This document shows, one piece after another, positions 25,403-39,060 of a stretch of DNA of 64,000 nt. Where the stretch lies: NCBI RefSeq assembly GCF_000733765.1, contig NZ_JPOG01000001.1:1-64000 (forward strand). The letters are read 5' to 3'. Positions within the stretch are counted from its first letter, which is position 1. Each line of letters begins with the position of its first letter. This stretch comes from Algiphilus aromaticivorans DG1253 (GTDB taxonomy: Bacteria > Pseudomonadota > Gammaproteobacteria > Nevskiales > Nevskiaceae). The notes below the pieces were generated by a model, which had not been told where the DNA came from, ran no database searches, and saw only the letters and a list, made by a program, of their open reading frames with translations. A program made the position numbers and the translations under genes.

Positions 25403-25565
25403 CCGCTTTCGCTTTCGGCGAGCGCACATAACACGATAAGCGCACTATTCAGAAGGAAAGGCGAACTATTGCTTTGTGATCGACCACTGAAGCGAGTACG
25501 TCGGCAGGATCAGCGCTTTCAATCGGAGTGGCGGTAGACCTGCTTGCTATCGGTCGGCGGACAGC

Positions 25566-26138
25566 TCAGTTTGGCTCAGTAGGATAAACGTTGTGTTCTG
25601 GATCCCACCAGACAACGAAGAACAGGTCGGAGATCCGATAGCCCCACAGTCGCCCTCTGGCACCGATTCGAAATCGATATGCCGTTTCGTACTGCTCCAA
25701 ATCTACCGTGCGCCATCGATCTTGTGCCTCTTTGCAGAGCGACGAGACCTCTTGATCATGGTGCTTCTGCCGACCCCGTACTCGGTGTTGAGCTACTTCA
25801 CCCCACGTGAGGTTCAGGACGTCATTCAAGAAGGGCTCAAGTTGGCATTCCCAGTCGTCGAGCAGTGCGGAACGCGGCCCCCAACTCCAACGCCCCTCTA
25901 CATCTTGCTGGCTGCAGCAGTACCGAACGGCTTCCGCGAAGATTGAGCCTGGGTCCTGGCTCGCCTTAGGAACTCGACTGGTCGTGGGTTCGCCGGCAGT
26001 TCTAGGTCGCTTGTCATGTCCCGCCGGCATGGAGCCTTCTAGCAGTCTCGGCCTTTTGCCTTCATGACGAGCTTGCCTCTCAAGCTTCTTTAAGCGCCTT
26101 TTCTCCGCGCGGCTTATTCTCTTTCCGTCTGAGGTCAC
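25566..26138 (-). CDS. Putative toxin partner of the Panacea antitoxin
   Basis: A 190-residue protein of no family I recognise. The first ~50 residues are very basic (SRAEKRRLKKLERQARHEGK) and probably disordered. The C-terminal ~140 residues are globular, with WSWGPRSALLDDWECQLEPFL and a closing AYRFRIGARGRLWGYRISDLFFVVWWDPEHNVYP. The LFFVVWWDPEH ending resembles the last strand of RelE/ParE-like folds (weak inference). GTG at 26138 overlaps the stop of the upstream Panacea gene (GTGA), so the two are co-translated, as in PanAT toxin-antitoxin pairs. Confidence 0.55.
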   Translation of the reverse strand: MTSDGKRISRAEKRRLKKLERQARHEGKRPRLLEGSMPAGHDKRPRTAGEPTTSRVPKASQDPGSIFAEAVRYCCSQQDVEGRWSWGPRSALLDDWECQLEPFLNDVLNLTWGEVAQHRVRGRQKHHDQEVSSLCKEAQDRWRTVDLEQYETAYRFRIGARGRLWGYRISDLFFVVWWDPEHNVYPTEPN

Positions 26139-26569
26139 AGACCGGAATAGAACTCATGCATTTGAGCGTGCGTGATTTCTCTGTTGCAGGAGGCGCCGGC
26201 TGGGAGGTCGCCGCGTGCAAGCTTCCACGGCTCCTCCATATGTGTGAGGTCACTCAGCCATTGCGCGTTGTGCTGCCCATAGAAGGCAATGACCTGCTCG
26301 ACAGTATCCTTTTGGGAAGCATTCAAGGCCTCAGGATTGCCGCTCGGGAAATCTTCTTCGGTGACTCGAAACTTTCCCCGGTGCTCATCGTATAGGTCGC
26401 GCACGACCGGCCCGTTTGCCCACGCCTCTATCCTCGCGTGGAAGAGAGGCTCTTCATCCCACACCAGGTTCCAAGCCTGCGCGTAATAGACCAGCTTCTG
26501 CAATTTCATAGCGGTCATCGGGCCGCACCGGCGGAGGATGAACCGCGCAACGTCAACGACAGTAGTCAT
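26135..26569 (-). CDS. Panacea-domain (SocA-like) antitoxin
   Basis: A 144-residue Panacea/DUF4065 protein. Hallmarks: VARFILRRCGPMTAMKLQKLVYYAQAWNLV, then FHARIEAWANGPVVRDLYDEHRGKF. Panacea domains neutralise many unrelated toxins encoded next to them and are also known from SocA. The next gene overlaps by four bases and is the expected toxin. The gene is divergent from the serine recombinase. Its CDS has lower GC than the core genes, in keeping with the island. Confidence 0.88.
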   Translation of the reverse strand: MTTVVDVARFILRRCGPMTAMKLQKLVYYAQAWNLVWDEEPLFHARIEAWANGPVVRDLYDEHRGKFRVTEEDFPSGNPEALNASQKDTVEQVIAFYGQHNAQWLSDLTHMEEPWKLARGDLPAGASCNREITHAQMHEFYSGL

Positions 26570-26657
26570 GGTTGCTCTCCTGTTTGGTTGCGGACGCTAC
26601 CACGTCGGTATCCCAATGACACCAATAAGCCGACGAGTGGTTGCAACTTCGGCGTAA

Positions 26658-26675
26658 GTCAGAAAACCACCGTTT
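26658..26675. promoter_or_regulatory. Dyad between the toxin-antitoxin and recombinase genes
   Basis: AGAAAAC-CACC-GTTTTCT, a perfect 7-bp-arm inverted repeat in the 206-bp divergent region. It could be an operator for the antitoxin or a recombination subsite; the sequence alone does not decide. Confidence 0.35.
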
Positions 26676-26775
26676 TCTTTACATCCCGACTGTCCCCTCC
26701 CGGAGCCCCTGAAAGGGCTTGATACCGCGCAAGAAACCGCGTACAACTATCTACGTAAAGACTAGGTGCGTTTTC

Positions 26776-27369
26776 TTGCTAATCGGATATGCCCGAGTAT
26801 CGACGATCGACCAGCGCCCAGAACTGCAACTGGATGCGCTGCGTGACGCTGGGTGCGAGCAGGTTTTTGAGGATCGGCTCTCGGGGGCCACTAGAGATCG
26901 TCCGCAGCTTTCAGCCTGCCTGCAGACGCTTCGCAAGGACGACACCCTGGTTGTGTGGCGCCTGGACCGTCTGGGACGCTCGTTGAAGGACCTCGTAGCG
27001 ATCGTCACGGAGCTGGACTCCCGAGGAATCGGCTTTCAGTCCGTGACCGAGGCCATCGACACCAGTACGTCGAGCGGACGCCTTGTCTTCCACATATTCG
27101 CGAGCCTGGCCGAGTTCGAGCGATCGATCATCCAGGAGCGCACGCGCGCTGGGCTCGCGGCGGCCAGAGCACGCGGTAGAAGAGGCGGGCGGAAGCCAAA
27201 GATGACGCTGGCAGATGTGCGCAAGGCCTCGGCCATGTTGCGCGATCCGAACATGACCAAGGCGGAGGTGGCAGAGCATTTTGGCGTTTCACGCATGACG
27301 CTGAATGCTTCACTCAAGCGCCACGCCTTGCCGGATACCCCAGGGTCACCAGGTGAGCCTGGGGCGTGA
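26776..27369 (+). CDS. Serine recombinase (resolvase/invertase family)
   Basis: A 197-residue small serine recombinase. The N-terminal catalytic domain has IGYARVSTIDQ (nucleophile Ser), VWRLDRLGRSLKDL and FASLAEFERSIIQERTRAGLAAARARGRRGG. A C-terminal Hin-type helix-turn-helix (KAEVAEHFGVSRMTLNASLKRH) follows. The best start is TTG at 26776, placing Met directly before LIGYARV as in relatives; the frame runs upstream without a better start. The role is resolution or inversion of DNA in the island. Confidence 0.88.
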   Translation: MLIGYARVSTIDQRPELQLDALRDAGCEQVFEDRLSGATRDRPQLSACLQTLRKDDTLVVWRLDRLGRSLKDLVAIVTELDSRGIGFQSVTEAIDTSTSSGRLVFHIFASLAEFERSIIQERTRAGLAAARARGRRGGRKPKMTLADVRKASAMLRDPNMTKAEVAEHFGVSRMTLNASLKRHALPDTPGSPGEPGA

Positions 27370-27402
27370 TAAACAACAGCTATTCCTAAGGGGACTCGTT
27401 TT

Positions 27403-28230
27403 ATGCAAACAAGACCGACACTCGCTCTCTTGCGTGCCGTGGTGCTGGGCCTCTGCGGCGCGCTCGTTGCCTGTCAGGCAGAGCCCACCATAGACGCCAG
27501 CTCGGATGCCGCGCTTGAAGCGAGCGCTGAAGAAGTTCGCGAGTCGCTGGCACCCGAACGCCGAGAGAAGTTCGATGAGGCAATGACGCTCCTAGCGTTC
27601 AGCAGCATCGACATCGAGGCCTTGTTCAGCGGCGATGCCTCGGCTACTGCGGCCGGGGCGAAAGGGAACATGAAAGCTAGGCTTGATGGCAAAACAGCGG
27701 ATGAAGTGATCGCGGAAGCTGAGCAGATCAGGGCGCAGCGACGTGAGAAGGAGCGAAGGCAGGCTCTCGCCGAGATTGAGGAGCTGGTCGCCAAGCGCGA
27801 AGCCAGCAAAGAGGCCGAGGAGGCTTTGAAGCAGTTCGAGGTTCAGCGCTCCCGCTTCTACGTCGAGGAGCGATCCTTCAGGGATCAGCCAATCATTGAG
27901 TTGACGGTCCAGAACAACACCGAGCACGCAATATCCCGAGCCTTCTTCCATGGCGTCGTCGCCAGCCCGGACCGTGCCGTCCCCTGGATTGAGGAAGACT
28001 TCAACTACACGATTCGCGGCGGCCTGGAGCCTAGCGAGAAGGCCACCTGGGAGCTTGCTCCAAATTCCTATAGCGGATGGGCAACCGAAGTGCCGGAGGA
28101 TGCGGTTCTGACAGTCTCGGTTGAGAAGCTCAACGGACCGGACGGCGAGACGCTGTTCGATACGGGCGCATTTGGCGAACGCGAGAAGCGGCGCTTGAAG
28201 GCCCTCCGCGACGAGTATGGAACCCAGTAA
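27403..28230 (+). CDS. DUF6694-like lipoprotein upstream of hsdM
   Basis: A 275-residue predicted lipoprotein. A signal sequence with lipobox LVAC puts the lipidated Cys near residue 24. The region after it (TIDASSDAALEASAEEVRESLAPERREKFDEAM) resembles DUF6694 lipoproteins. Residues ~85-145 form a charged coiled coil (AEAEQIRAQRREKERRQALAEIEEL). The C-terminal ~110 residues look like an Ig-like beta domain (IIELTVQNNTEHAISRAFFHGVV). It ends two bases before the hsdM ATG, so the genes are likely co-transcribed although a restriction system needs no lipoprotein. RBS AAGGGG is visible upstream. Confidence 0.68.
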   Translation: MQTRPTLALLRAVVLGLCGALVACQAEPTIDASSDAALEASAEEVRESLAPERREKFDEAMTLLAFSSIDIEALFSGDASATAAGAKGNMKARLDGKTADEVIAEAEQIRAQRREKERRQALAEIEELVAKREASKEAEEALKQFEVQRSRFYVEERSFRDQPIIELTVQNNTEHAISRAFFHGVVASPDRAVPWIEEDFNYTIRGGLEPSEKATWELAPNSYSGWATEVPEDAVLTVSVEKLNGPDGETLFDTGAFGEREKRRLKALRDEYGTQ

Positions 28231-28232
28231 CG

Positions 28233-29843
28233 ATGACCGAAGAAGACTTCAAGAAGACCCTCTGGGATACAGCCAACGCGCTGCGCGGCTCGGTTTCAGC
28301 CGCCGAGTACAAGTACCCGGTGCTGGGGCTGGTGTTCCTCAAGTACGTGTCCGACATGTTCGATGCCCAGGCCGAGGTCATCCGATCTCGGCTTGCCGAC
28401 CCGAAGTCGGACATCTACATGGACGATGAAGCGATTCGCGCCGAGGCCGAGCAGGAGTTCCTGACTGATCGCAGCTTCTATGACGCAGACAACGTGTTCT
28501 GGGTGCCGGAGGAGGCGCATTACTCCCGCCTTCTCAAAGGTGCGGCGGCTGCCGGCAAGGATCTGCCCAACCAGCTCAATGCGGCCATGCGGGCCATTGA
28601 GAAGGAGAACGCCAGCCTGAACGGCGTGCTCTATCGTCAGTTCGATCAGCTCGAACTCGGGCCGGGGACGCTGGCCTCTCTCATGGCCAAGATCGCGGAA
28701 TTGAAGTTCGATCCGGGGAAACATGGCAGCCGGGACATCTTCGGCGAGATCTACGAATACTTTCTTGGCGAGTTCGCGCGCGCCGAAGGCGCACAGGCCG
28801 GCGAGTTTTATACGCCGAAGAGCGTGGTGAATCTGCTTGTCGAAGTGCTCGCGCCCTTCCGAGGCAAGATCTATGACCCCTGCTGTGGCTCGGGCGGCAT
28901 GTTCGTCCAGTCCGCGAAGTTCAAGGAGGCCCACGCCTCAAAGCTCGGCAAGAAGGGGGATCTCCCAATCTACGGCCAGGAGATGATGGCTGCGACTCGC
29001 CGGCTGGCGAAGATGAACCTCGCGGTGCACGGGCTGGGAGACAGCGATCTCGGCGAAACCTATGGCTCTACCTTCAACAACGACCAGCACCCGAAGCTGC
29101 GGGCCGACTACATCCTCGCCAATCCGCCCTTCAATATTTCGAACTGGGGCGGCGACAAGCTGACCGAAGATCCGCGCTGGACCTACGGCATACCGCCGAA
29201 GAACAACGCCAACTACGCTTGGCTGCAGCACATGCTGGCGCGGCTATCGACACATGGGCGCGCAGGCATCGTGCTGGCAAACGGTTCGATGACCACCAAC
29301 ACCTCGGGTGAAGGTCAGATCCGCAAGATGATGATTGCCGCCGATGTAGTCGAGTGCATGGTCGCGCTCCCGGGGCAGCTCTTTTCCAACACGCAGATTC
29401 CGGTATGCCTCTGGTTCCTGACCAGGGACAAGAAGGCCGGCGTCAATGGGGCTACCGATCGATCTGGCCAGACATTGTTCATCGATGCCCGGAAGATGGG
29501 GTCGCTGCAGCTCAGCCGCACCATGATCGGGTTCTCGGATGAGGAAATTCACCGCATTGCGCAGACCTACCATTGGTGGCGGGGCACGGAGTTTGTTGAC
29601 GAAGGCGAGTACGAGAACGCCCTGGGCTTCTGCAGGTCGGCGGACTATGCGGAGATCGAGAAGCACGGCTTCGTTCTGACCCCAGGACGCTACGTCGGAG
29701 CGGCGGAAGTCGAGGACGACGACGAGGCCTTCGAGGAGAAGATGCAGCAGCTCACTTCCAAGTTGAGCGAGCTGTTCGCTAAGGGCAAAGCGCTAGAGGA
29801 TGAGGTGCGGCGGCAGTTGGAGAGGGTTGGGTATGAGGTGTAG
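28233..29843 (+). CDS. hsdM: Type I restriction-modification methyltransferase subunit HsdM
   Basis: A 536-residue N6-adenine methyltransferase subunit. An N-terminal HsdM_N helical domain (EDFKKTLWDTANALRGS) is followed by the SAM site DPCCGSGGMFVQSAKF (motif I, ~residue 212) and the catalytic motif NPPFNISNWGG (motif IV, ~292). It works with HsdS to methylate the recognition site and with HsdR to cleave unmodified DNA. The 3' end overlaps hsdS by 11 nt. Confidence 0.95.
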   Translation: MTEEDFKKTLWDTANALRGSVSAAEYKYPVLGLVFLKYVSDMFDAQAEVIRSRLADPKSDIYMDDEAIRAEAEQEFLTDRSFYDADNVFWVPEEAHYSRLLKGAAAAGKDLPNQLNAAMRAIEKENASLNGVLYRQFDQLELGPGTLASLMAKIAELKFDPGKHGSRDIFGEIYEYFLGEFARAEGAQAGEFYTPKSVVNLLVEVLAPFRGKIYDPCCGSGGMFVQSAKFKEAHASKLGKKGDLPIYGQEMMAATRRLAKMNLAVHGLGDSDLGETYGSTFNNDQHPKLRADYILANPPFNISNWGGDKLTEDPRWTYGIPPKNNANYAWLQHMLARLSTHGRAGIVLANGSMTTNTSGEGQIRKMMIAADVVECMVALPGQLFSNTQIPVCLWFLTRDKKAGVNGATDRSGQTLFIDARKMGSLQLSRTMIGFSDEEIHRIAQTYHWWRGTEFVDEGEYENALGFCRSADYAEIEKHGFVLTPGRYVGAAEVEDDDEAFEEKMQQLTSKLSELFAKGKALEDEVRRQLERVGYEV

Positions 29844-31083
29844 CCGCCCTCTATCGGAAGTAGCCCGTATCCAACAAGGTCGGTACTTAGCGCAGAACGA
29901 AATGGCCGAGTGTCCCGGGCCAGGCGCAGAAGTGCCCGTCTGGGGGGCGAACGGCATCCTTGGCTACACATCGGAGCCGGAGTATCAACAGGCGGTAGCT
30001 CTCGTGACCTGTCGAGGCAATGGTTGCGGGAAAGTCCAGTGGACTAGAGCGGCGGCCCATGTGTCAAACAATGCCATGGCGATCATTCCAATGGACGGTG
30101 ACGGCGTAGATCAACGCTTCATGTACTACTCTCTTCATGAAGCAAACATTGCATCAGTTATCTCAGGATCTGCGCAGCCGCAAATCACGCGAACCCATCT
30201 CAGTGCCGTCGCCATCTCCTGGCCGGATCGAGGTGAGCGAGAGCGGATCGTTGAGTGCCTCGATTCGCTTGACCAACGCATCGCCAACAACCGCTTCCTA
30301 GCCACCAACCTCGAATCCATCGCGCGCGCCATCTTCAAGTCCTGGTTCGTGGACTTCGACCCGGTGCGCGCCAAGATGGAAGGCCGGGAGCCGGAGGGCA
30401 TGGATCCGGAGATCGCGGCGCTGTTCCCGGATCGGCTGGTGGAGAGTGAGTTGGGGTTCGTGCCGGAGGGGTGGGAATGGGTCCCTCTCTCGGAAATGGC
30501 CGAGTTTCTGAATGGTCTAGCACTGCAGAAATTTCCACCGAACGGCCACGACGACTTGCCCGTACTCAAGATTGCTCAACTGCGCTCAGGTGCGTTGGAT
30601 CCCGATAAACTTGCCTCTCGGGAAGTCGGTGACCGATACATCGTTAGCAGTGGGGACCTTATCTTCTCGTGGTCTGGTTCTCTTATGGTCGATGTGTGGT
30701 GTAGCTCTGACTGCGCGCTCAACCAGCATTTATTCAAGGTCAACCCGGCATCTTGGGCATCTAAAGGTTTGCTGTGGGCGGCTATACAGAAAAATATCGA
30801 AGGTTTCCAAGCAATCGCGGCCTCAAAGGCAGTCACAATGGGGCACATAAACCGTCGTCACTTGGATGAGGCATTCGTCGCACTTCCCTCACGCGAGAGC
30901 GTGAAGATCATGAGTTCTTCGCTCGACGCGCTGACTGAAAATATTATCCATGCGCGCCTGGAATCACATGCTCTCGCTTCCTTGCGAGATTTTCTTCTCC
31001 CTCGTTTAATTTCTGGCCGGTTGTCCATAAAAGAAGTTGAGGCTGCGGCAAATACAGAGCCCTGCGAACATAGAGTTGATTAA
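29833..31083 (+). CDS. hsdS: Type I restriction-modification specificity subunit HsdS
   Basis: A 416-residue specificity subunit with two target-recognition domains (~1-140 and ~210-370) separated by conserved helices (ERIVECLDSLDQRIANNRFLATNLESIARAIFKSWFVDFDPVRAKM). The second half repeats the pattern (GLALQKFPPNGHDDLPVLKI ... LLPRLISGRLS). The recognition sequence should be bipartite and cannot be derived by eye. Base composition drops in both recognition domains, as is common for exchanged HsdS modules. Confidence 0.93.
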   Translation: MRCSRPLSEVARIQQGRYLAQNEMAECPGPGAEVPVWGANGILGYTSEPEYQQAVALVTCRGNGCGKVQWTRAAAHVSNNAMAIIPMDGDGVDQRFMYYSLHEANIASVISGSAQPQITRTHLSAVAISWPDRGERERIVECLDSLDQRIANNRFLATNLESIARAIFKSWFVDFDPVRAKMEGREPEGMDPEIAALFPDRLVESELGFVPEGWEWVPLSEMAEFLNGLALQKFPPNGHDDLPVLKIAQLRSGALDPDKLASREVGDRYIVSSGDLIFSWSGSLMVDVWCSSDCALNQHLFKVNPASWASKGLLWAAIQKNIEGFQAIAASKAVTMGHINRRHLDEAFVALPSRESVKIMSSSLDALTENIIHARLESHALASLRDFLLPRLISGRLSIKEVEAAANTEPCEHRVD

Positions 31084-31085
31084 TT

Positions 31086-31760
31086 GTGCAGATCCTAATA
31101 GAAATTGGCCACCTTCTCAGCGCGCTGTCCACAGTGGCAATCGCGATACTCACCTATCACTTATGGAGGGAAAATAAAGCCCTGCGGAAGATGAGTTCAG
31201 AAGCGGAAATTGTGCCGCATTTTGAGACTCATCCGGACGGTACCGGCGGGTTGAACCTTTGTCTATCCAACGTCGGCCCTGGACCGGCCATGGATGTCAC
31301 TTTCTCAATTATTTCCGGTGAAGCTGAGTTTCATCGATATGGTGTCATACTAGATCATAGCAAAAGGCGTTCCGCGATCACGCTAGTGCCTTCTGGGGGG
31401 AAATTCAGCTTCCTTTTCGGGATTGGCTATCAGCTCTTCAATCCAAAGGACGGCGATGCAGGTGAGCCGCTTAAGCCGTTTCAAGTCGAAGTGGCTTGGC
31501 GAACATCTAAGGATGTTAATATCGTTAAGAAGGTTCACACTCTGGACGTTTCGCAGTTCAGAGGGCTTCCAGGTATGATGAACATGCCTTACGCCCTGCA
31601 GAGTGCGCTTGAACTAAAGGCTATGAATCAGCAGCTAGCCGCATTAACAAAGGTGCTTGCGCCCATCGTGGGTTTTGTCGATGCAACTAAGCCAGAAAAT
31701 CAGTCACGACAGAAGGCGAAGGGCAATCCAGAACCCAAGGAAGGTGGTGGGGGGCAATGA
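31086..31760 (+). CDS. Single-pass membrane protein inside the type I restriction operon
   Basis: A 224-residue protein of unknown family. One N-terminal membrane helix (LLSALSTVAIAILTYHLW, residues ~9-26) is followed by a basic stretch, a beta-rich domain at ~38-165 (EIVPHFETHP, LNLCLSNVGPGPAMDVTFSI) resembling conserved domains behind a single helix, and a Gly/Lys-rich tail. GTG at 31086 starts 2 bases after the hsdS stop, and the end overlaps hsdR by four bases, so it is embedded in the operon. Base composition is among the lowest GC in the window. Confidence 0.72.
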   Translation: MQILIEIGHLLSALSTVAIAILTYHLWRENKALRKMSSEAEIVPHFETHPDGTGGLNLCLSNVGPGPAMDVTFSIISGEAEFHRYGVILDHSKRRSAITLVPSGGKFSFLFGIGYQLFNPKDGDAGEPLKPFQVEVAWRTSKDVNIVKKVHTLDVSQFRGLPGMMNMPYALQSALELKAMNQQLAALTKVLAPIVGFVDATKPENQSRQKAKGNPEPKEGGGGQ

Positions 31761-34700
31761 AAGAAGACCACCTCGAAACCTCCGCCCTCGACTGGCTCGG
31801 TAGCCTCAGCTACGAGTGCTGCAAGGGCGAGGCGATCACCGGCGAGAGCAAGGACCGGGAGCGCTATCGCGAGGTGGTGCTGAAGCCGCGCCTAGCATCA
31901 GCGGTGCGAGCGCTAAATCCCGACCTCGCCGAGGTGGATCAGGTCGTCGAGAAGCTCGCCGACTACAGCGCCCAGTCCCAGATTGAGGGCAACCGCGAGG
32001 TTCACGACTGGCTGACCAGCGGTGTGCCGATCGAGGTGATGCGCGACAACGGTGAGCGCGAGGTCATCCGCGCCCAGGTGATCGACTTCGAGAATCCCGA
32101 GGCGAATGACTGGCTGGCCGTGCAGCAGTTCACGGTCCACGGCACCCATCCCCGTCGCCCCGATGTCGTGGTCTTCGTCAACGGCCTTCCACTCATCGTC
32201 ATGGAGTTGAAAAACCCCGGCGACGAGGACGCGGACACCGAGGAAGCCTGGAAGCAGATCCAGACCTACAAGCGGGAGATCCCGCAGCTCTTTCACTACA
32301 ACCTGCTGAACGTCATCTCTGACGGCATCGTGACCCGATACGGCTCGCTGACCGCCGATCTGGAGCGGCACTCACCCTGGCGCCTGATCGGCGCTGAGGA
32401 AGCGCCTAGCCACATGATGGAGCTGGAGGTGCTCTGCCGGGGGCTGCTGGACAAAGCGACGCTCCTGCGCTTCCTGAGGGGCTATGTGGCCTTTGTGACC
32501 GACGACGGCGCGGCGCAGGCCAAGGTCGTCGCGCAGTGGCAGCAGTTCCATGGCGTCGAGAAGGCGGTCGAGCGCGCTGTTTCGGCCTATCACAGCGGTG
32601 ACGGTAAGGGCGGTGTCGTCTGGCACACCCAGGGCAGCGGCAAGTCCTTTCTGGCGCTGTTCTACGCCAATGCGCTGCGCAAACACCCGGAGCTGGAGAA
32701 CCCGTCCATCGTGGTCGTCACCGACCGCAACGACCTCGACGGCCAGCTCTTCGAGACTTTCGCGGCGTGCAGGGACACGCTGGAGACCGTGCCGGTGCAG
32801 TTCGAGGATCGCGCGGACCTGCGCAAGCAGCTTCAAGCCGTAGCAGCGGGCGGAATCTTCTTTACGACCATCAACAAGTTCGCCCCCGTCGAGGATGGCG
32901 TCGAGGCGCTGAGCCAGCGGCGCAACATCATCGTGATCGCCGACGAGGCGCACCGCACGCAGTACGGCTTCAAGGCCAAGATCAATGCGGAGACCGGCAA
33001 GAAGAAGTACGGGCTTGCCAAATACATGCGTGAGGCGCTGCCGAACGCCATCTATCTCGGCATGACCGGCACCCCTGTCGAGCAGGATGACCGCGACACG
33101 CGGGGCGTGTTCGGCGAGTACGTCGATGTCTACGACATGCTCGACGCCCAGCGCGACGGCGCGGTGGTGCCGATTAGCTACGAAGCCCGGATCATCGATC
33201 TGGCCTTCAACGAGGCCGAGAAGCAGGCCCTGCTCGACGAGTTCGAAGAGGCCATGGTCGATGAGGACGTGGAGGGGCAGAGCAAGGCGGCCAGCCGCTA
33301 CACGCGCCTGGAGGCGCTCGCGACCGCCGAAGGCCGGATGCAGACGCTTGCCGAGGATCTGGTCAAGCACTGGGAGCAGCGCCAGGAATCCATCCAGGGC
33401 AAGGCGATGGTAGTAGCCATCTCTCGCGCGGCGGCCGTACAGCTCTACGACGAGATCGTGAAGCTGCGCCCTGACTGGCATAGCGACGATCTGGACAAGG
33501 GCAAGATCAAGGTCGTGATGACCGGCAGCAAGGCCAGCGACCCCGAGCACTTCGCCCCGCACCGCACGAACAAGACGCAGCGCAAATTTGTCGAGAAGCG
33601 CTTCAAGAAGGCGGATGACGAGCTGGAGATCGTCATTGTCCGGGACATGTGGCTGACCGGCACTGATTCGCCGCCCTGCCACACGATGTACATCGACAAG
33701 CCCATGCATGGCCACGGCCTGATGCAGGCCATCGCCCGCGTCAACCGCGTCTGGAAGGACAAGCCGGGTGGGCTGGTGGTGGACTACATCGGCATCGGCG
33801 AGGACCTCACGAAGGCGATCACCAGCTACACCTCGGCGTCCGGTAAAGAGGAGGAGCCGGTCGATCGCTCCGGTAAGGCGCTGGGCGTGCTGCTCGACAC
33901 GCTCGACGTGCTGCGCAAGGAGTTCTGGCGCGGCTTCGACTACAGCGGCTTCGAAGACCCTCAGAAGGCCGTGGCGCTGCTCAAGCCCGCGATGGACCAC
34001 ATCGCCCAGATCAACCCCAAGGGCGACGAGAAGGGGCGCAACCAAGGCATCCGGGACTACATCGATCAGGTCACCAAGCTGACCAAGGCCCAAGCGATTG
34101 CTGGCACCCGCGAAGAGGCCCTGGCTGTGCGCGACGAGATTGCGTTCATGATGGTCATCAAGGCCGGCCTGGTGAAGATGACGCGCGCCGGGAGCGGCAA
34201 GTCCAGGCTCGAAAAGGAAGCCGCTCTGCGCCAGCTCGTCGCCAAGGGTGTGCTGGTCGAGGGTGTACGCGATCTCTACGAGGGCTTGGGCATCGACAAG
34301 CCGGACATCTCGCTGGTTGATGAGTCTTTTGTTGAGAAGCTCCGCGAAATGCCTCAGAAGAACCTGGCGGCTGAGCTGCTGCAGCGCCTACTCGACGACA
34401 AGATCAAGTCGCGAGGCAGCCGCAACGCGGCGCTGGAAGTCGAGTTTGCCGGGAAGCTGAAGGACGCCATCGACAAGTACCGAAGCCGCTCGCTGCACAG
34501 CGCAGAGGTGATCGAGGAGCTGATCCAGATCGCCAAGGAGCTGGCCGAGCACAAGCCCCCTCAGGGTTTGAGCGAGGAAGAGGCTGCTTTCTACGAAGCG
34601 CTCGTGAAGAACGAGAGCGCGGTGCGAGAGCTGGGAGATCCGACGTTGCGCGCGCTGGCCCAGGAGCTGACGGACAAGCTGCGCAAGTCGGCCACCATCA

Positions 34701-34861
34701 ACTGGCATGAGCGTCAGTCCGCCCGAGCCGGTATGCGTGCGATGGTCAAGGTGCTGCTGAAGCGCTATCGCTACCCACCCGACAAGCAGGAGGCAGCGAC
34801 CGAAACCGTGCTGTCGCAGGCGGAGCGTCTCGCTGACACCTGGGCATTTGAGCTGTCGTGA
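31757..34861 (+). CDS. hsdR: Type I restriction endonuclease subunit HsdR
   Basis: A 1034-residue motor and nuclease subunit. The N-terminal nuclease domain shows RPDVVVFVNGLPLIVMELKNPG (PD-(D/E)xK type, ~residues 135-155). The helicase core has Walker A HTQGSGKSFLALFYA (~290) and the DEAH box IADEAHRTQYG (~394), then TGTPVE and RVNRVWKDKPGGLVVDYIG (motifs III/VI). Its length is normal. The ATG at 31757 overlaps the membrane-protein gene. It appears intact, so the system should cleave unmodified DNA. Confidence 0.96.
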   Translation: MKEDHLETSALDWLGSLSYECCKGEAITGESKDRERYREVVLKPRLASAVRALNPDLAEVDQVVEKLADYSAQSQIEGNREVHDWLTSGVPIEVMRDNGEREVIRAQVIDFENPEANDWLAVQQFTVHGTHPRRPDVVVFVNGLPLIVMELKNPGDEDADTEEAWKQIQTYKREIPQLFHYNLLNVISDGIVTRYGSLTADLERHSPWRLIGAEEAPSHMMELEVLCRGLLDKATLLRFLRGYVAFVTDDGAAQAKVVAQWQQFHGVEKAVERAVSAYHSGDGKGGVVWHTQGSGKSFLALFYANALRKHPELENPSIVVVTDRNDLDGQLFETFAACRDTLETVPVQFEDRADLRKQLQAVAAGGIFFTTINKFAPVEDGVEALSQRRNIIVIADEAHRTQYGFKAKINAETGKKKYGLAKYMREALPNAIYLGMTGTPVEQDDRDTRGVFGEYVDVYDMLDAQRDGAVVPISYEARIIDLAFNEAEKQALLDEFEEAMVDEDVEGQSKAASRYTRLEALATAEGRMQTLAEDLVKHWEQRQESIQGKAMVVAISRAAAVQLYDEIVKLRPDWHSDDLDKGKIKVVMTGSKASDPEHFAPHRTNKTQRKFVEKRFKKADDELEIVIVRDMWLTGTDSPPCHTMYIDKPMHGHGLMQAIARVNRVWKDKPGGLVVDYIGIGEDLTKAITSYTSASGKEEEPVDRSGKALGVLLDTLDVLRKEFWRGFDYSGFEDPQKAVALLKPAMDHIAQINPKGDEKGRNQGIRDYIDQVTKLTKAQAIAGTREEALAVRDEIAFMMVIKAGLVKMTRAGSGKSRLEKEAALRQLVAKGVLVEGVRDLYEGLGIDKPDISLVDESFVEKLREMPQKNLAAELLQRLLDDKIKSRGSRNAALEVEFAGKLKDAIDKYRSRSLHSAEVIEELIQIAKELAEHKPPQGLSEEEAAFYEALVKNESAVRELGDPTLRALAQELTDKLRKSATINWHERQSARAGMRAMVKVLLKRYRYPPDKQEAATETVLSQAERLADTWAFELS

Positions 34862-34899
34862 CGCATCCCACATCCAGTTGCTGAACAGCCGAAGCGTCC

Positions 34900-35682
34900 A
34901 TGCCTCTGCTTCGTTATCAGATCGTCGGCGAAGGCGAAGAACACCCCGATAGCACGACCGGCGCCCGTGACGGGCACTTGGCCGTTCTGCTCAAGCATGA
35001 CCACGAGCAGGCCAATGCTCAGGTCTATTCGGAGATCGCCGCCAACCGGCTGGCGCAGTTTCTCGGGATCCCGGTTGTGCTCGGTGTCATGGCCACCGGA
35101 GAGAGCGACCCTCACGCAGTATCTTTTGCCTCATTGCGGGCGGCTGAGAGTGCACTGCAGCTCTATGATTTCACGCAGCTCGATGAGCGAATGGATGCCG
35201 ATGAGGCCGACGTGGCTCCCGGTGCTTATATGGGCAGCGGTCATCTCACCGAGATCAAGCGGCTCTGTGAGACGTATCCCGTCGAAGCGGCAGCAGTGGC
35301 CGTGTTCGACTTGTGGATTGCCAATGCGGACAGAGCCCTCAACTTCAAGGCGGAGCTGGATGGTGGGGAGAGGGGCGTCCTGTTCGCACTGGACCAAGGC
35401 TCGTCTTTGCTCGCGAGTTGCTCGACGATCGAGGCTTCTCTGGATGCTTTGAGCGATGGCACGCGACCAAAAGACCACCCCTTTCAGAAGTATCTCCAGG
35501 GTGTACATTGCGGGTCGATGGTCGAACGCATCCGGTCACTGCCCGAATGGGCGATCGAATCGGCGATGACTTACAACGACACGATCGGCAACGTGACACT
35601 CGACCAACAGTTCCTGGCTTGCGACCTACTGATCGAGCGCCGGAAGTTGCTGGAGGAAATGGTCAAGCGAGTGCTGTTCTGA
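34900..35682 (+). CDS. HipA-like kinase-domain protein
   Basis: A 260-residue protein resembling the HipA-like kinase group (HipA_2). The region FDLWIANADRALNFKAEL ... GVLFALDQGSSLL matches the family catalytic segment D-x-x-x-x-N-x-D-R-x-x-x-N followed by a D-x-G-x-x-L metal-binding motif (here DQGSSL). HEQANAQVYSEIAANRLAQFLGIPV fits the N-lobe. There is no HipB-like partner and no N-terminal HipA domain. It starts 38 nt after hsdR in the same direction, so it may be the last gene of the restriction operon. Its 3' end overlaps the converging GIY-YIG gene by 57 nt. Confidence 0.7.
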   Translation: MPLLRYQIVGEGEEHPDSTTGARDGHLAVLLKHDHEQANAQVYSEIAANRLAQFLGIPVVLGVMATGESDPHAVSFASLRAAESALQLYDFTQLDERMDADEADVAPGAYMGSGHLTEIKRLCETYPVEAAAVAVFDLWIANADRALNFKAELDGGERGVLFALDQGSSLLASCSTIEASLDALSDGTRPKDHPFQKYLQGVHCGSMVERIRSLPEWAIESAMTYNDTIGNVTLDQQFLACDLLIERRKLLEEMVKRVLF

Positions 35683-35934
35683 CCATTGATCAGCGATATG
35701 CCGCTTTGCGGTGTGAGGAAGCGGTTTGATTCTCGCTTCCAGGCTCAGGGCTTCACGCTTCGAGCCCACAGGGCGCACGGCTAGTAGCCGAACAGGCTGG
35801 TTCATACGTGTGTAACGCGCTCCCTTGCCCTGAAGGTGCTGGCCGAGCCGTCGCACTGGGTCCGGGGAAACGCCCGTATAAATGCGGTTGCCGCGACATA
35901 GCAGTAGATAGACGTGCCAGATCGCATCACTCAT
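35626..35934 (-). CDS. GIY-YIG nuclease-family protein
   Basis: A 102-residue UvrC/YhbQ-like GIY-YIG protein. It begins MSDAIWHVYLLLCRGNRIYTGVSPDPVRRLGQH, where VYLL and IYTG are the GIY and YIG motifs and the Arg is catalytic. GKGARYTRMNQPVRLL and SKREALSLEARIKPL supply the catalytic Glu region. The ATG at 35934 overlaps the stop of the upstream gene by 8 nt, making it the fourth gene of the integrase operon. Its 3' end lies antisense to the HipA-like gene. Confidence 0.85.
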   Translation of the reverse strand: MSDAIWHVYLLLCRGNRIYTGVSPDPVRRLGQHLQGKGARYTRMNQPVRLLAVRPVGSKREALSLEARIKPLPHTAKRHIADQWSEQHSLDHFLQQLPALDQ

Positions 35935-37237
35935 CGCTGGCGAGGATCTTGTTGTTGCGCGCCCGTACCAGTGCTGGGTCCACCCGATGATGCATGTCCA
36001 CTGGAAGCAGATGCTCAAGGCGAGCAAGGCCGCTCATGGATGCGCCGGTTACGAAATGCACGACCACCCGGTCGTTGTGGCCACGATACATCGCGCGCAG
36101 AAGGCCCGAGTTGCGAATCATGTTCGCCCCGTAGGGCGCGAAGCACCGACTATAAAGATCGTTAAGACGCGGCAAATACGGCTTGAGAAACCGCACAGCC
36201 GGGACGCTGTCGGGGTCGTTTGCAGGCCACGCTACCGGTGCCAGTCGGGCGTAGTCAGCCAGAACATTGCCTACATGCGATGGCGTGGGCACCCATGCGG
36301 AATGGGGTCGAATCAAAACGCGGCCATCTTCGGCGAGCGTTATCCGGTCGAGTGAAAGTGCGTGGGCTACGGTTGCGCGCAGACCTGCCCCACCGACAAG
36401 CCATACGAAGGCGTACTCTGCTGGCGTCATACGTTCGCGCGCTGAAGCGAGAAATGCCTCCAATGTCTTTGGTTGCAGCGCCTTTGGCGGCTCCCGCCGA
36501 GCAAAACGAGCGCTTGTCATCTTGTGATGGCGACCTCTGCGATCGGGCCGTAACATTTTCCCGGTAGCAAACCGGAAGAAGTGGAGCAGCTTGTAGCTCT
36601 TTATCCGAGGGTTGGCCGCGAGAAACTCGTTCGCGTCGTTGTCTCGCATCACATCCCAGCGATTAACCCCGCGCTCGTGCAGGAATTTCGCGAGTCGAAT
36701 CGGGATGCGCATACGTTCATAGACGTACTCATTTGAGCGCGTGTGTCCCTTCTTGGTCAGCATCTCGTAGCGCGCTTCGAGGGTCCGGCGGTATTCGGCC
36801 AGCACGTCGCGAAGGCCTTCTGGCAAATAGTCCGGTATAGAAGCTGCCCGGGGTGGGTCAATCGGCACTACGTCCGGCAGGTGTACGAGCGCTTCATGGA
36901 GTAAAACCTGCATATCAATACTCCCACTGCGCAACAGCATCCCAAGTCCAACGCGGTTGGCGCGGCGGAGATACTCAACAAGTGGCTCACCGTCCACTCC
37001 GCAGGCTGCGACGAGGTCCCGGGTTGCCGCGAATAAGATGTCGCGCTTTCCCGATTGCAATCTCGACGGGTTCCGCATTGTCGCGTAGGCCGCCGAATGC
37101 AAGCGCGTGCCTCTGGCCGCCCAGCAGGATACTGCGCGGGAATAGCCGGTACGTCCGCAATGGATGCGCTTCCGAGCCTTCTTGCCCGGTGCGGCCTCAA
37201 TAGCATCACCGCAAATGTCGCAGGTTCTGATCGGCAT
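35927..37237 (-). CDS. Zinc-ribbon protein with degenerate tyrosine-recombinase fold
   Basis: A 436-residue protein. Residues 6-38 carry CDIC ... C ... C, a likely zinc ribbon. From ~140 on it follows the layout of tyrosine recombinases: a helical core-binding part (RMRIPIRLAKFLHERGVNRWDVM), then AEYAFVWLVGGAGLRATVAHALSLDRI, equivalent to the catalytic Arg I region. The HxxR region appears as NMIRNSGLLRAMYRG without the His, and the C-terminal segment LEHLLPVDMHHRVD has no Tyr where the nucleophile should be. I infer a catalytically inactive recombinase-like partner. ATG at 37237 is coupled to the regulator stop (TGATG). Confidence 0.6.
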   Translation of the reverse strand: MPIRTCDICGDAIEAAPGKKARKRIHCGRTGYSRAVSCWAARGTRLHSAAYATMRNPSRLQSGKRDILFAATRDLVAACGVDGEPLVEYLRRANRVGLGMLLRSGSIDMQVLLHEALVHLPDVVPIDPPRAASIPDYLPEGLRDVLAEYRRTLEARYEMLTKKGHTRSNEYVYERMRIPIRLAKFLHERGVNRWDVMRDNDANEFLAANPRIKSYKLLHFFRFATGKMLRPDRRGRHHKMTSARFARREPPKALQPKTLEAFLASARERMTPAEYAFVWLVGGAGLRATVAHALSLDRITLAEDGRVLIRPHSAWVPTPSHVGNVLADYARLAPVAWPANDPDSVPAVRFLKPYLPRLNDLYSRCFAPYGANMIRNSGLLRAMYRGHNDRVVVHFVTGASMSGLARLEHLLPVDMHHRVDPALVRARNNKILASDE

Positions 37238-37677
37238 CAGTTGCGGTCTTTGAGAGCGTCCTTGCTCAGGTGGGTGACTTTCGGCCCAAGGGCTTCATCT
37301 TCGTCAGCGGGCTTGGCTTCTTCAGACGAGGGAGCCTGGTCGGGTCTCGCTTGTTCAGCACGCCCCTTGGCGGTGCCCAGGCTGATCGAGCCGTAGCGAA
37401 ACGGCAGGAGACGGCTCTGGATCGCCTCGGCCTCTTCCTGGGCCGCTTCGGTGATCTCGACGCCGTACACGTCGCCTGGGAGGCACTGCAGTGTGTTGCA
37501 GAGCGCCTCGACGAACTGGAGATTGAGGTTCGCAGACGGGTTCCGGGCAATACGGCTCAGCGTGCTTCGAGTGATCGGGAACCCCTGATTCGTCAGGGCC
37601 TCGGCTAGTTTCTCGTAAGAGGGGATGCCGCTGTCTTCCATCAACAGGCTGAGGCGGTTTTTCAGCTTGATCTTCAT
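37237..37677 (-). CDS. Xre-type helix-turn-helix regulator of the integrase operon
   Basis: A 146-residue protein whose first ~75 residues form a Cro/CI-type HTH (SYEKLAEALTNQGFPITRSTLSRIARNP, then FVEALCNTLQCLPGDVY). The rest is an acidic, Ala/Glu/Lys-rich tail that is probably disordered. It lies between the recombinase gene (24-nt gap) and the degenerate recombinase (1-nt overlap). The likely targets are the paired CGTGCA-N5-TGCACG sites before the operon (inference). Confidence 0.8.
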   Translation of the reverse strand: MKIKLKNRLSLLMEDSGIPSYEKLAEALTNQGFPITRSTLSRIARNPSANLNLQFVEALCNTLQCLPGDVYGVEITEAAQEEAEAIQSRLLPFRYGSISLGTAKGRAEQARPDQAPSSEEAKPADEDEALGPKVTHLSKDALKDRN

Positions 37678-37701
37678 GGTTGAGCGAGTCCTTGGAGGAA
37701 G

Positions 37702-38886
37702 TTACTCATCGTCGGGGAAGTATCCGTCGATGTACACGCCGGCATGCTGGTTGCCGGCGTGCAGCACCTGTGGGTGGTAGTAGTGAAGGGTTGTCGCAAG
37801 ATGCTTGTGGCGCATGTACTTCTGGGCGACCTCGGGTGAGTAAAGGGGGACCATGAGCGTGCAACCCGTATGCCTCAGGGTATGCGGGGTCGGTTTGCGC
37901 GGAAGCCCTGCTTGCAGGGCCACGTTGCCGAGGCGCTTCCGATAGTTGTTCGCGGACATCACGCCACTGCGCTCCGTCGGAAACAGCAGGTCCGAGAGCG
38001 GGATGCTCTCCTTGCCGAGTCGGCAGATGCCGTCCGGGTTCTTGCAGCGCGAGAGAATCTGGGGTCGCACCGAGCCGAGATACCAAGTCAGAAGGGCGTG
38101 GATGTCAGGCTCGCGCATCGGGATAGTGCCGAATACGTCATTCTTCCCGAAGACCGACAGTGCGCCATAGTCGCCGAATCGCGCGTTTAGGCGAGGGTCG
38201 TCGCTGGCGTGGAAGTCCGATAGCTTGACCGTCACCAGTTCTGAAACACGGAGTGCGAAGTGGATCGCGAGATGGAACATCACACGGTCGCGCAGCACGG
38301 GTAGCAGGGACTTCGTGCCCCGCTGCTTGGCGACAGCCGCTTCGTATCGAAACTCCTTGTCCATCGCGTCGATGTGCGAGGCATTGAGCGCCCACCCGGC
38401 CGCCCGCTTGTCGGGCTTTCGGGTCTTGATCCCGACCGCGTTGGCTTCTGTGACGAACTCGGTAGGCCGCTGGCCAAACTCTCTGGCGATGTCGTTGATC
38501 GTCTCCTGCTTGAGCAGGAACGACTGGAAGGAGCGCCAGGCCGATGCATAGCCGGCGATCGTGCTCGACTGCAGCCCATGCGGCCTTTCGGGCGTGATCC
38601 GCGACTCCAGATAGTTCACGACATGGATGGGGCGCAGCTCCCAAGGGGTGACTTCTGCGTGGCGGAGGAGGCGCAGGAGCGCATCCCGGTGTTGGTCGCA
38701 GCTCGCGGGCTTGTTGCCCTCCCAGTGACGGATGTGTCCGTACCACTGACTGATCAGGCTGTTTGCGTACTCGCGCTCCCGGCCGGATAGGAACGACAGG
38801 GCATCTGCCTGAGGCGCCTGCTTGAGGCTTGCCTCCTCTGTAGGCGCACTATTGATCGTGCGCTTCATCGGCAGAACGGTCGTCAT
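37702..38886 (-). CDS. Tyrosine recombinase/integrase
   Basis: A 394-residue site-specific tyrosine recombinase. The SAM-like core-binding domain spans ~60-180. The catalytic domain shows Arg I in HFALRVSELVTVKLSDF, the beta-hairpin Lys region (FGKNDVFG), HTLRHTGCTLM (HxxR) and HKHLATTLHYYHP with the nucleophilic Tyr. All catalytic positions look intact. I chose ATG at 38886 (MTTVLPMKR) because a promoter ends at that point; a longer frame to 38931 would translate the operator repeat. It is the first gene of the four-gene minus-strand operon at the island edge. Confidence 0.92.
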   Translation of the reverse strand: MTTVLPMKRTINSAPTEEASLKQAPQADALSFLSGREREYANSLISQWYGHIRHWEGNKPASCDQHRDALLRLLRHAEVTPWELRPIHVVNYLESRITPERPHGLQSSTIAGYASAWRSFQSFLLKQETINDIAREFGQRPTEFVTEANAVGIKTRKPDKRAAGWALNASHIDAMDKEFRYEAAVAKQRGTKSLLPVLRDRVMFHLAIHFALRVSELVTVKLSDFHASDDPRLNARFGDYGALSVFGKNDVFGTIPMREPDIHALLTWYLGSVRPQILSRCKNPDGICRLGKESIPLSDLLFPTERSGVMSANNYRKRLGNVALQAGLPRKPTPHTLRHTGCTLMVPLYSPEVAQKYMRHKHLATTLHYYHPQVLHAGNQHAGVYIDGYFPDDE

Positions 38887-38893
38887 GGGGCGT

Positions 38894-38922
38894 ATTGTTG
38901 CACAAACAACACGCGCGTGCAA
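38894..38922 (-). promoter_or_regulatory. Integrase promoter, leaderless arrangement
   Basis: On the minus strand TTGCAC (38922-38917), a 17-bp spacer and AACAAT (38899-38894). The predicted start of transcription falls at about the ATG at 38886, so the mRNA may be leaderless. The -35 overlaps the operator-like repeat at 38916-38932. Confidence 0.5.
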
Positions 38923-38932
38923 GTTCTGCACG
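38916..38932. promoter_or_regulatory. Operator-like repeat 1 of the integrase operon
   Basis: CGTGCA-AGTTC-TGCACG, a perfect 6-bp-arm dyad over the integrase -35. It has a near-identical copy at 38991-39007. Confidence 0.6.
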
Positions 38933-38990
38933 ATTAGGCGGGGCCGTGTGGGGTACTGGGCAGCCCGGCTGGTTGGTGTTAGCCTCTAAA

Positions 38991-39007
38991 CGTGCATATT
39001 CTGCACG
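38991..39007. promoter_or_regulatory. Operator-like repeat 2 of the integrase operon
   Basis: CGTGCA-TATTC-TGCACG, in the same orientation and 75 bp from repeat 1 (centre to centre, about seven helical turns). That spacing would allow DNA looping by the Xre-type regulator, or the pair could be recombinase arm sites. Confidence 0.55.
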
Positions 39008-39029
39008 ATAAAAGTAGGCATAGTGGAGT

Positions 39030-39060
39030 AAAAAAAAAGCGGGCCCCCGAGGGAGCCCGC
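39030..39060 (-). terminator. Intrinsic terminator of amtB
   Basis: On the minus strand GCGGGCTCCC-TC-GGGGGCCCGC (one G-U pair) followed by nine T, about 35 bp after the amtB stop. It marks the right boundary of the island. Confidence 0.9.

Follow-up and report, generated by a model that had tools for sequence, protein, structure and literature searches.

What kind of mobile element joins a tyrosine recombinase to an Xre-type DNA-binding protein, a second recombinase-like protein and a GIY-YIG nuclease? The question is raised by contig NZ_JPOG01000001.1 of Algiphilus aromaticivorans DG1253, of which we analyzed a stretch of 64 kb (hereafter the window). It holds a module of four minus-strand genes (int, xre, P3 and the GIY-YIG nuclease gene), with 24 nt between the int stop and the xre start, a 1-nt overlap of the xre stop with the P3 ATG and an 8-nt overlap of the P3 stop with the nuclease ATG. 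These gene coordinates bear out the layout given by an earlier reading made from the sequence alone (the sequence-only reading), which had also taken the four genes for one unit at the edge of a defence-carrying island and for a possible relative of Gamma-Mobile-Trio (GMT), Tn554 or recombinase-in-trio (RIT) elements. The four-gene core stood and its extent did not: the element is larger, spanning window positions 25430-39029 (13.6 kb), with a G+C content of 0.598 against 0.673 in the flanks. The best explanation of the locus as a whole, which we consider probable, is an integrative mobile element of an undescribed family, with int-xre-P3-GIY-YIG as its core, HipA-like and resolvase companions and an exchangeable restriction cargo. 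The HipA-like, resolvase and type I restriction genes had been overlooked as parts of the same element, as had the insertion site, an intrinsic terminator (Table 1).

The four-gene module and its proteins

The search for the same gene order in other genomes, proposed by the sequence-only reading, found it in 12 further elements of Gamma- and Betaproteobacteria, two of them split or cut at contig ends. Besides the window, the order was seen in genome G014 (locus L009), in Pseudomonas megaplasmids (L007, L035, L036), in L023, L024, L026, L027, L028, L029, L030 and L033, in L031, where the contig end cuts the GIY-YIG gene, and in G195, split over two contig ends. All four genes are present in every complete element, the cargo varying, and wherever the contig is long enough they stand in this order. 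Independent elements with Int proteins only 39-50% identical to that of the window share it, so the arrangement is more than chance and the view of the four genes as one unit is supported. Core and cargo were told apart by Mantel correlation of pairwise protein distances with Int distances across elements. The distances of Xre (r 0.86), P3 (0.89), GIY-YIG (0.79) and the HipA-like protein (0.75) follow those of Int (each p 0.0005), as do those of the resolvase in the six elements with a resolvase in reach, whereas HsdR (r 0.26, p 0.13) and HsdM (r 0.07, p 0.45, n 7) do not track Int. Because of this difference in co-divergence, the module and the HipA-like gene are taken to be inherited as a unit and the restriction genes to be exchanged; judged by these distances, the restriction system is exchangeable cargo.

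In Int, the HTLRHT, RH and Tyr motifs are conserved in four aligned homologues; its ATG lies at 38886, and the mechanically called open reading frame (ORF) starts further upstream, at 38931. The active-site-like residues Y9, Y19, R29, H33 and E66 of the GIY-YIG nuclease are invariant in an alignment of ten homologues. The C-termini of the 12 aligned Xre homologues have in common a GPxVxHL-type motif, preceded by a variable linker; this motif is likely a protein-protein contact.

The third protein, P3, had been called dead recombinase-like, rightly so by its predicted fold. A Foldseek search with its AlphaFold model (mean predicted local distance difference test score 83) gave tyrosine recombinases as its leading matches, among them XerH (E=8.7e-6), Cre and IntI. 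Structural matches to XerH, Cre and IntI reached Z 10-12.5, with a VIA match to XerH of Z 12.5 over residues 135-423; the integron integrase 2a3v was among the best (Z 12.1), and SroF of phage phi3T was also matched (Z 8.7). The His/Arg/Tyr catalytic set is not conserved among P3 homologues. Ahead of the recombinase-like part, P3 has an N-terminal CxxC...C...CW pattern whose cysteines are invariant in 11 homologues; the Aliidiomarina P3 (L023:11642-13348) carries an additional N-terminal copy of this cysteine-rich segment. No family membership was found in Pfam, NCBIfam, PHROGs or solved-structure sequences, and a profile comparison of P3 with Int found no sequence homology (hhalign probability 1.4%). 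The inclusion of the nuclease in the set was also borne out, P3 and GIY-YIG being fused as one protein in Acinetobacter (L029:11634-13295). We met no account, in the literature searched, of a GIY-YIG nuclease paired with a recombinase-fold protein that is catalytically dead.

Ends, empty sites and target

Like tyrosine-recombinase integrative elements in general, the element has its catalytic recombinase at one end, precise ends and an empty site in relatives. Two dyads lie upstream of int in every element (consensus YGTGCA-N5-TGCACR; copy 1 is degenerate in L031), and about 22 nt outside the first dyad lies a T-tract. The int end abuts this host T-tract at a fixed distance at 15 distinct sites, and the crossover maps within the tract. 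The far boundary was set at about 25430 by the motif GCAATAGTTCGCC, taken from the exact junctions of L036 and L056, which occurs free of mismatches only at 25460-25472 in the 19.4 kb scanned. In L023, L024, L026, L027 and L029, too, the motif lies on the correct contig and strand, each time as a pair of repeats spaced by about 22 nt. A 6-bp spacer fingerprint like that of strand-biased circularizing integrative elements (SEs) was considered and dropped: the far end reads CCNGTT in most elements and looks like a fixed arm, not a host-derived spacer.

Two exact empty sites were found in Pseudomonas megaplasmids. Comparison of pBM908 with pPAG5 places the junction at GGGCCCTTTTTTTT/GCTTG: the empty site of pBM908 reads GGGCCCATATTGGGCCCTTTTTTTT-GCTTGAAATCC, the int end of pPAG5 GGGCCCTTTTTTTT-ATATCTAATATC and its far end ...GATAGTTCACCTATCCGGTTTT-GCTTGAAATCC. 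Comparison of pJBCL41 with pNY5709 (int end) and pNY11382 (far end) gives GGGGCTTTTTTTT/GTCAGG, at another terminator. A near-exact empty site for the G014 element, from G025, a genome of a related genus, has the terminator and lacks the element. These three sites show that the terminator and T-tract belong to the host. The possibility that the terminator is part of the element was rejected, as identical Pseudomonas elements lie behind three different terminators and, at two of these three sites, empty plasmids have the same terminator. In the sister species G001, which is without the element, amtB and the omp-like gene are neighbours (on two contigs overlapping by 97 bp), and a similar hairpin and T8 follow amtB.

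A stable hairpin stands just before the T-tract at 14 of the 15 int-end sites. A combined hairpin-plus-T-tract score was passed at 13 of 15 sites compared with 1% of random flank positions (p 9e-25). With 123 [GC]TTTTT sites in the same flanks as a control for the T-tract, hairpins of -12 kcal/mol or lower were found at 13/15 insertion sites and 15% of control tracts (p about 1e-9), and hairpins of -8 kcal/mol or lower at 14/15 and 32% (p about 1e-6). These p-values overstate the evidence for active targeting, since the elements at several of the sites are related to one another and a bias of survival is in favour of harmless insertions. Most of these insertion sites are thus host intrinsic terminators. 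A tRNA target was considered and dropped, there being no tRNA in the window. No tyrosine-recombinase element at terminators was described in the literature searched, which leaves most subscription papers uncovered.

Companions, cargo and relatives

Table 1. Positions of the module, its companions, cargo, ends and target in the window
Feature	Position	Strand	Evidence or remark
int, XerC/D-like tyrosine recombinase, catalytic motifs present	37702..38886	-	Pfam Phage_integrase 4.5e-15
xre, HTH_26 DNA-binding protein, conserved C-terminal GPxVxHL-type motif	37237..37677	-	Pfam HTH_26 6e-8; alignment of 12
P3, four-cysteine N-terminal segment and tyrosine-recombinase fold	35927..37237	-	predicted structure; no Pfam/NCBIfam/PHROG family
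GIY-YIG nuclease	35626..35934	-	Pfam GIY-YIG 4e-13
HipA-like gene	34900..35682	+	weak HipA_2 match; Mantel r 0.75, p 0.0005 vs Int
hsdR, type I restriction subunit, cargo	31757..34861	+	T1RH-like_C 1.5e-98; PADLOC REase_I
224-aa ORF between hsdS and hsdR	31086..31760	+	no family match in Pfam
hsdS, specificity subunit, cargo	29800..31083	+	Methylase_S
hsdM, type I methyltransferase, cargo	28233..29843	+	N6_Mtase 4.6e-99
DUF6694 protein	27403..28230	+	Pfam DUF6694; homologue at same place in G014
res, serine resolvase	26770..27369	+	Pfam Resolvase 1.9e-47
SocA/Panacea antitoxin-like gene, cargo	26135..26569	-	Pfam SocA_Panacea 7.7e-20
190-aa ORF, cargo	25566..26138	-	no family match
Dyad copy 1 CGTGCAGAATATGCACG, probable operator or recombinase arm site	38991..39007	-	same place in all 15 ends
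Dyad copy 2 CGTGCAGAACTTGCACG	38916..38932	-	between copy 1 and int start
Far end, two tandem repeats GCAATAGTTCGCC..., last letters ..TATCGTGTT	25430..25472	-	junction motif; host DNA and omp-like gene adjoin
Host amtB intrinsic terminator hairpin, target site	39039..39060	-	terminator scan, 9 pairs then T9
Host T9 tract at int-end junction	39030..39038	-	int-end alignment

The restriction system adjoining the module belongs to the same element, in support of the claim that the module stands at the edge of a defence-carrying island. The HipA-like gene is convergent with the GIY-YIG gene and overlaps its 3' end, likewise in several relatives, and it stays where a type ISP enzyme replaces the type I system. 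The resolvase gene keeps its place in the Pseudomonas, G014 and L026 elements. Toward the far end, the SocA/Panacea-like gene is followed by the 190-aa ORF; the two are possibly a toxin-antitoxin-like pair.

The arrangement with HipA-like, type I and resolvase genes is the same in G014 (L009), which belongs to the same family as the window genome, in the Pseudomonas megaplasmids (L007, L035, L036) and, over two contig ends, in G195. A scan with an Int alignment gave eleven more loci, from Aliidiomarina, Rubrivivax, Acinetobacter, Pseudomonas and several metagenome-assembled Gamma- and Betaproteobacteria; two of them repeat known elements (L025, the pPAG5 site; L032, G195). In L023 the module has no type I genes nearby, and in L029 a type ISP restriction enzyme and a reverse transcriptase take their place. 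The Acinetobacter higginsii element (L044:6831-13751) has a reverse transcriptase gene, a type ISP restriction enzyme and a remnant of the HsdR C-terminus. Klebsiella plasmid copies hold only an int interrupted by an insertion sequence. The Pseudomonas megaplasmids carry a class 1 integron with resistance cassettes about 277 bp from the resolvase gene of the element (L007:21394-23325, L035:25592-27523, L036:12255-14186), a position as expected for a res-seeking Tn402-type insertion. The portions available of the pPAG5 and pSY153-MDR papers gave no name for the megaplasmid element.

Of 100 relatives searched for P3 homologues, 3 gave a match (the genome itself, G014 and, weakly, one more), and in samples drawn across the class and the phylum about 1% or fewer did so; the family is thus uncommon and scattered. 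Matches in G324, G057 and G278 were weak and single-segment and were not used. A degenerate-peptide scan of genome contigs with P3 alone gave no match, nor did one of viral contigs with Int, and the family was not seen in phage collections.

Proposed working and alternatives

By the features tested, the element is not a GMT, SE, GInt, RIT or Tn554, and it appears to represent a family of tyrosine-recombinase elements not described before. Like GMT islands, it sets a recombinase and partners beside defence cargo. The GMT gene set differs from int-xre-P3-GIY-YIG. An NCBIfam scan gave no match of Int to the GmtY model NF040693 at E<=1, and a genome search with this model found nothing at the locus; no module protein matched an NCBIfam trio model, and Xre, P3 and GIY-YIG had no GMT-named match, the presence of GmtX and GmtZ models in NCBIfam being unconfirmed. 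The operon has one catalytic recombinase, whereas Tn554 (TnpA, TnpB and TnpC), SEs and GInts have at least two and RIT elements three. With no GmtY match and a single catalytic recombinase, the suggested kinship to GMT, Tn554 or RIT is not supported.

Loss of the second recombinase from a divergent SE or GInt would account for the overall plan, namely a coupled recombinase operon at one end, a dead recombinase-fold protein, cargo and a short distal end (PMC10214605, PMC5385486), and we consider such an origin quite improbable. SEs (intA-tfp-intB-srap; 6-58 kb) have two catalytic recombinases, Srap, and in Tfp a recombinase-fold protein without the RHRY residues; they carry resistance or other cargo, and the paper mentions neither terminators nor GIY-YIG (PMC10214605). 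GInts (ginABCD) likewise have a four-gene operon with one member missing part of the catalytic motif, variable cargo and a short far end, but encode three integrases and GinD (PMC5385486), which the gene content of the module does not match. The module has only one RHRY recombinase, with an HTH_26 protein and, as fourth gene, a GIY-YIG nuclease; no counterpart of Srap or GinD was found, Srap being judged without a profile model. P3 agrees with Tfp in having a recombinase fold without RHRY, but in the collection searched neither P3 (tblastn) nor Int matched the SE-carrying pBT2436 and pAQU1. A further SE feature is strand-biased circularization without an empty site.

For the undescribed element that we favour, the sequences show the anatomy, namely the conserved module, its co-divergence, the predicted recombinase fold of P3, the position of insertion and the empty sites; the following roles and mobility we infer. 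Int, the sole recombinase with a full catalytic set, would perform strand exchange within the T-tract, with P3 binding DNA as a catalytically dead recombinase-fold partner. Xre would bind both CGTGCA-N5-TGCACG dyads, which lie between int and the int end of the element, and would control the operon and possibly also the direction of recombination. The GIY-YIG nuclease and P3 might act together on a DNA intermediate, either cleaved or folded as a hairpin. In a circular form the far-end repeats (GCAATAGTTCACC...TATCCNGTT) would meet the int end; Int would insert this circle into the T-tract of an intrinsic terminator, so that the host hairpin and T-tract end up upstream of int. Insertion at this position would therefore damage no gene and keep the terminator, which may shield int from read-through. 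It is unlikely, in our judgement, that P3, like SroF, is instead a repressor that binds DNA and has an integrase fold, with Xre as a second regulator, Int recombining alone and GIY-YIG as an accessory or defence nuclease. The match to SroF and the lack of a catalytic set in P3 beside a complete Int would fit such a role, but P3 matches XerH, Cre and IntI more strongly, the fusion and the operon overlaps link it to the nuclease, and no complete element has lost any of the four genes while its cargo changed.

How would the terminator be found? Integron integrases are tyrosine recombinases able to use a folded hairpin (attC) as substrate; the present element, unlike integrons, has no attC array or cassettes, and its own use of a hairpin is hypothetical. 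A serious possibility, which we put forward tentatively, is a new class of DNA element in which Int, dead P3 and GIY-YIG recognise the terminator hairpin as a structure, as group IIC introns do, any terminator then being a harmless site. According to PMC7161350 (citing Robart et al. 2007), these introns also land just after intrinsic terminators, using the stem-loop; they are RNA retroelements, in contrast to a DNA element with a tyrosine recombinase. It may be, though we are somewhat doubtful, that the target is the duplex T-tract with its preceding G/C, terminators being merely where such tracts occur and harm least. The crossover inside the T-tract and the T-rich tracts kept at both exceptional sites (L023, L028) agree with a duplex target, but hairpins of -12 kcal/mol or lower are far rarer at [GC]TTTTT flank sites than at insertion sites, a difference in which survival bias remains.

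Several points weigh against the integrative element with terminator targeting as proposed here. L023 lies within an ORF, where the DNA is T-rich but has no hairpin, and in L028 the letters AAAGCC separate the hairpin from the T-tract; because of these two sites, a hairpin is perhaps no strict requirement. Little harm comes from insertion behind terminators, and survival could enrich such sites. The left junction of the window was placed by its motif, not by an alignable empty site, and excision and the circle are deduced from sequence. The kinship of P3 to recombinases rests on a predicted fold, without sequence homology to Int, and the role given to GIY-YIG is guesswork. Distances of genes in the same element are not independent, as the genes share descent, and what the Mantel test tells apart is core and cargo, not function.

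What is new here is the target. Many tyrosine-recombinase islands go to one fixed sequence, for instance that of a tRNA gene; a landing place at terminators was found described, in the papers searched, only for the unrelated group IIC introns. The family also ties a catalytically dead recombinase-fold protein to a GIY-YIG nuclease and, if the proposal is true, offers a simple way to test whether a tyrosine recombinase recognises hairpins. General use of terminators with conserved orientation would then be a natural safe-harbour integration system, and would explain how restriction systems and the class 1 integrons of Pseudomonas megaplasmids spread to many sites without damage.

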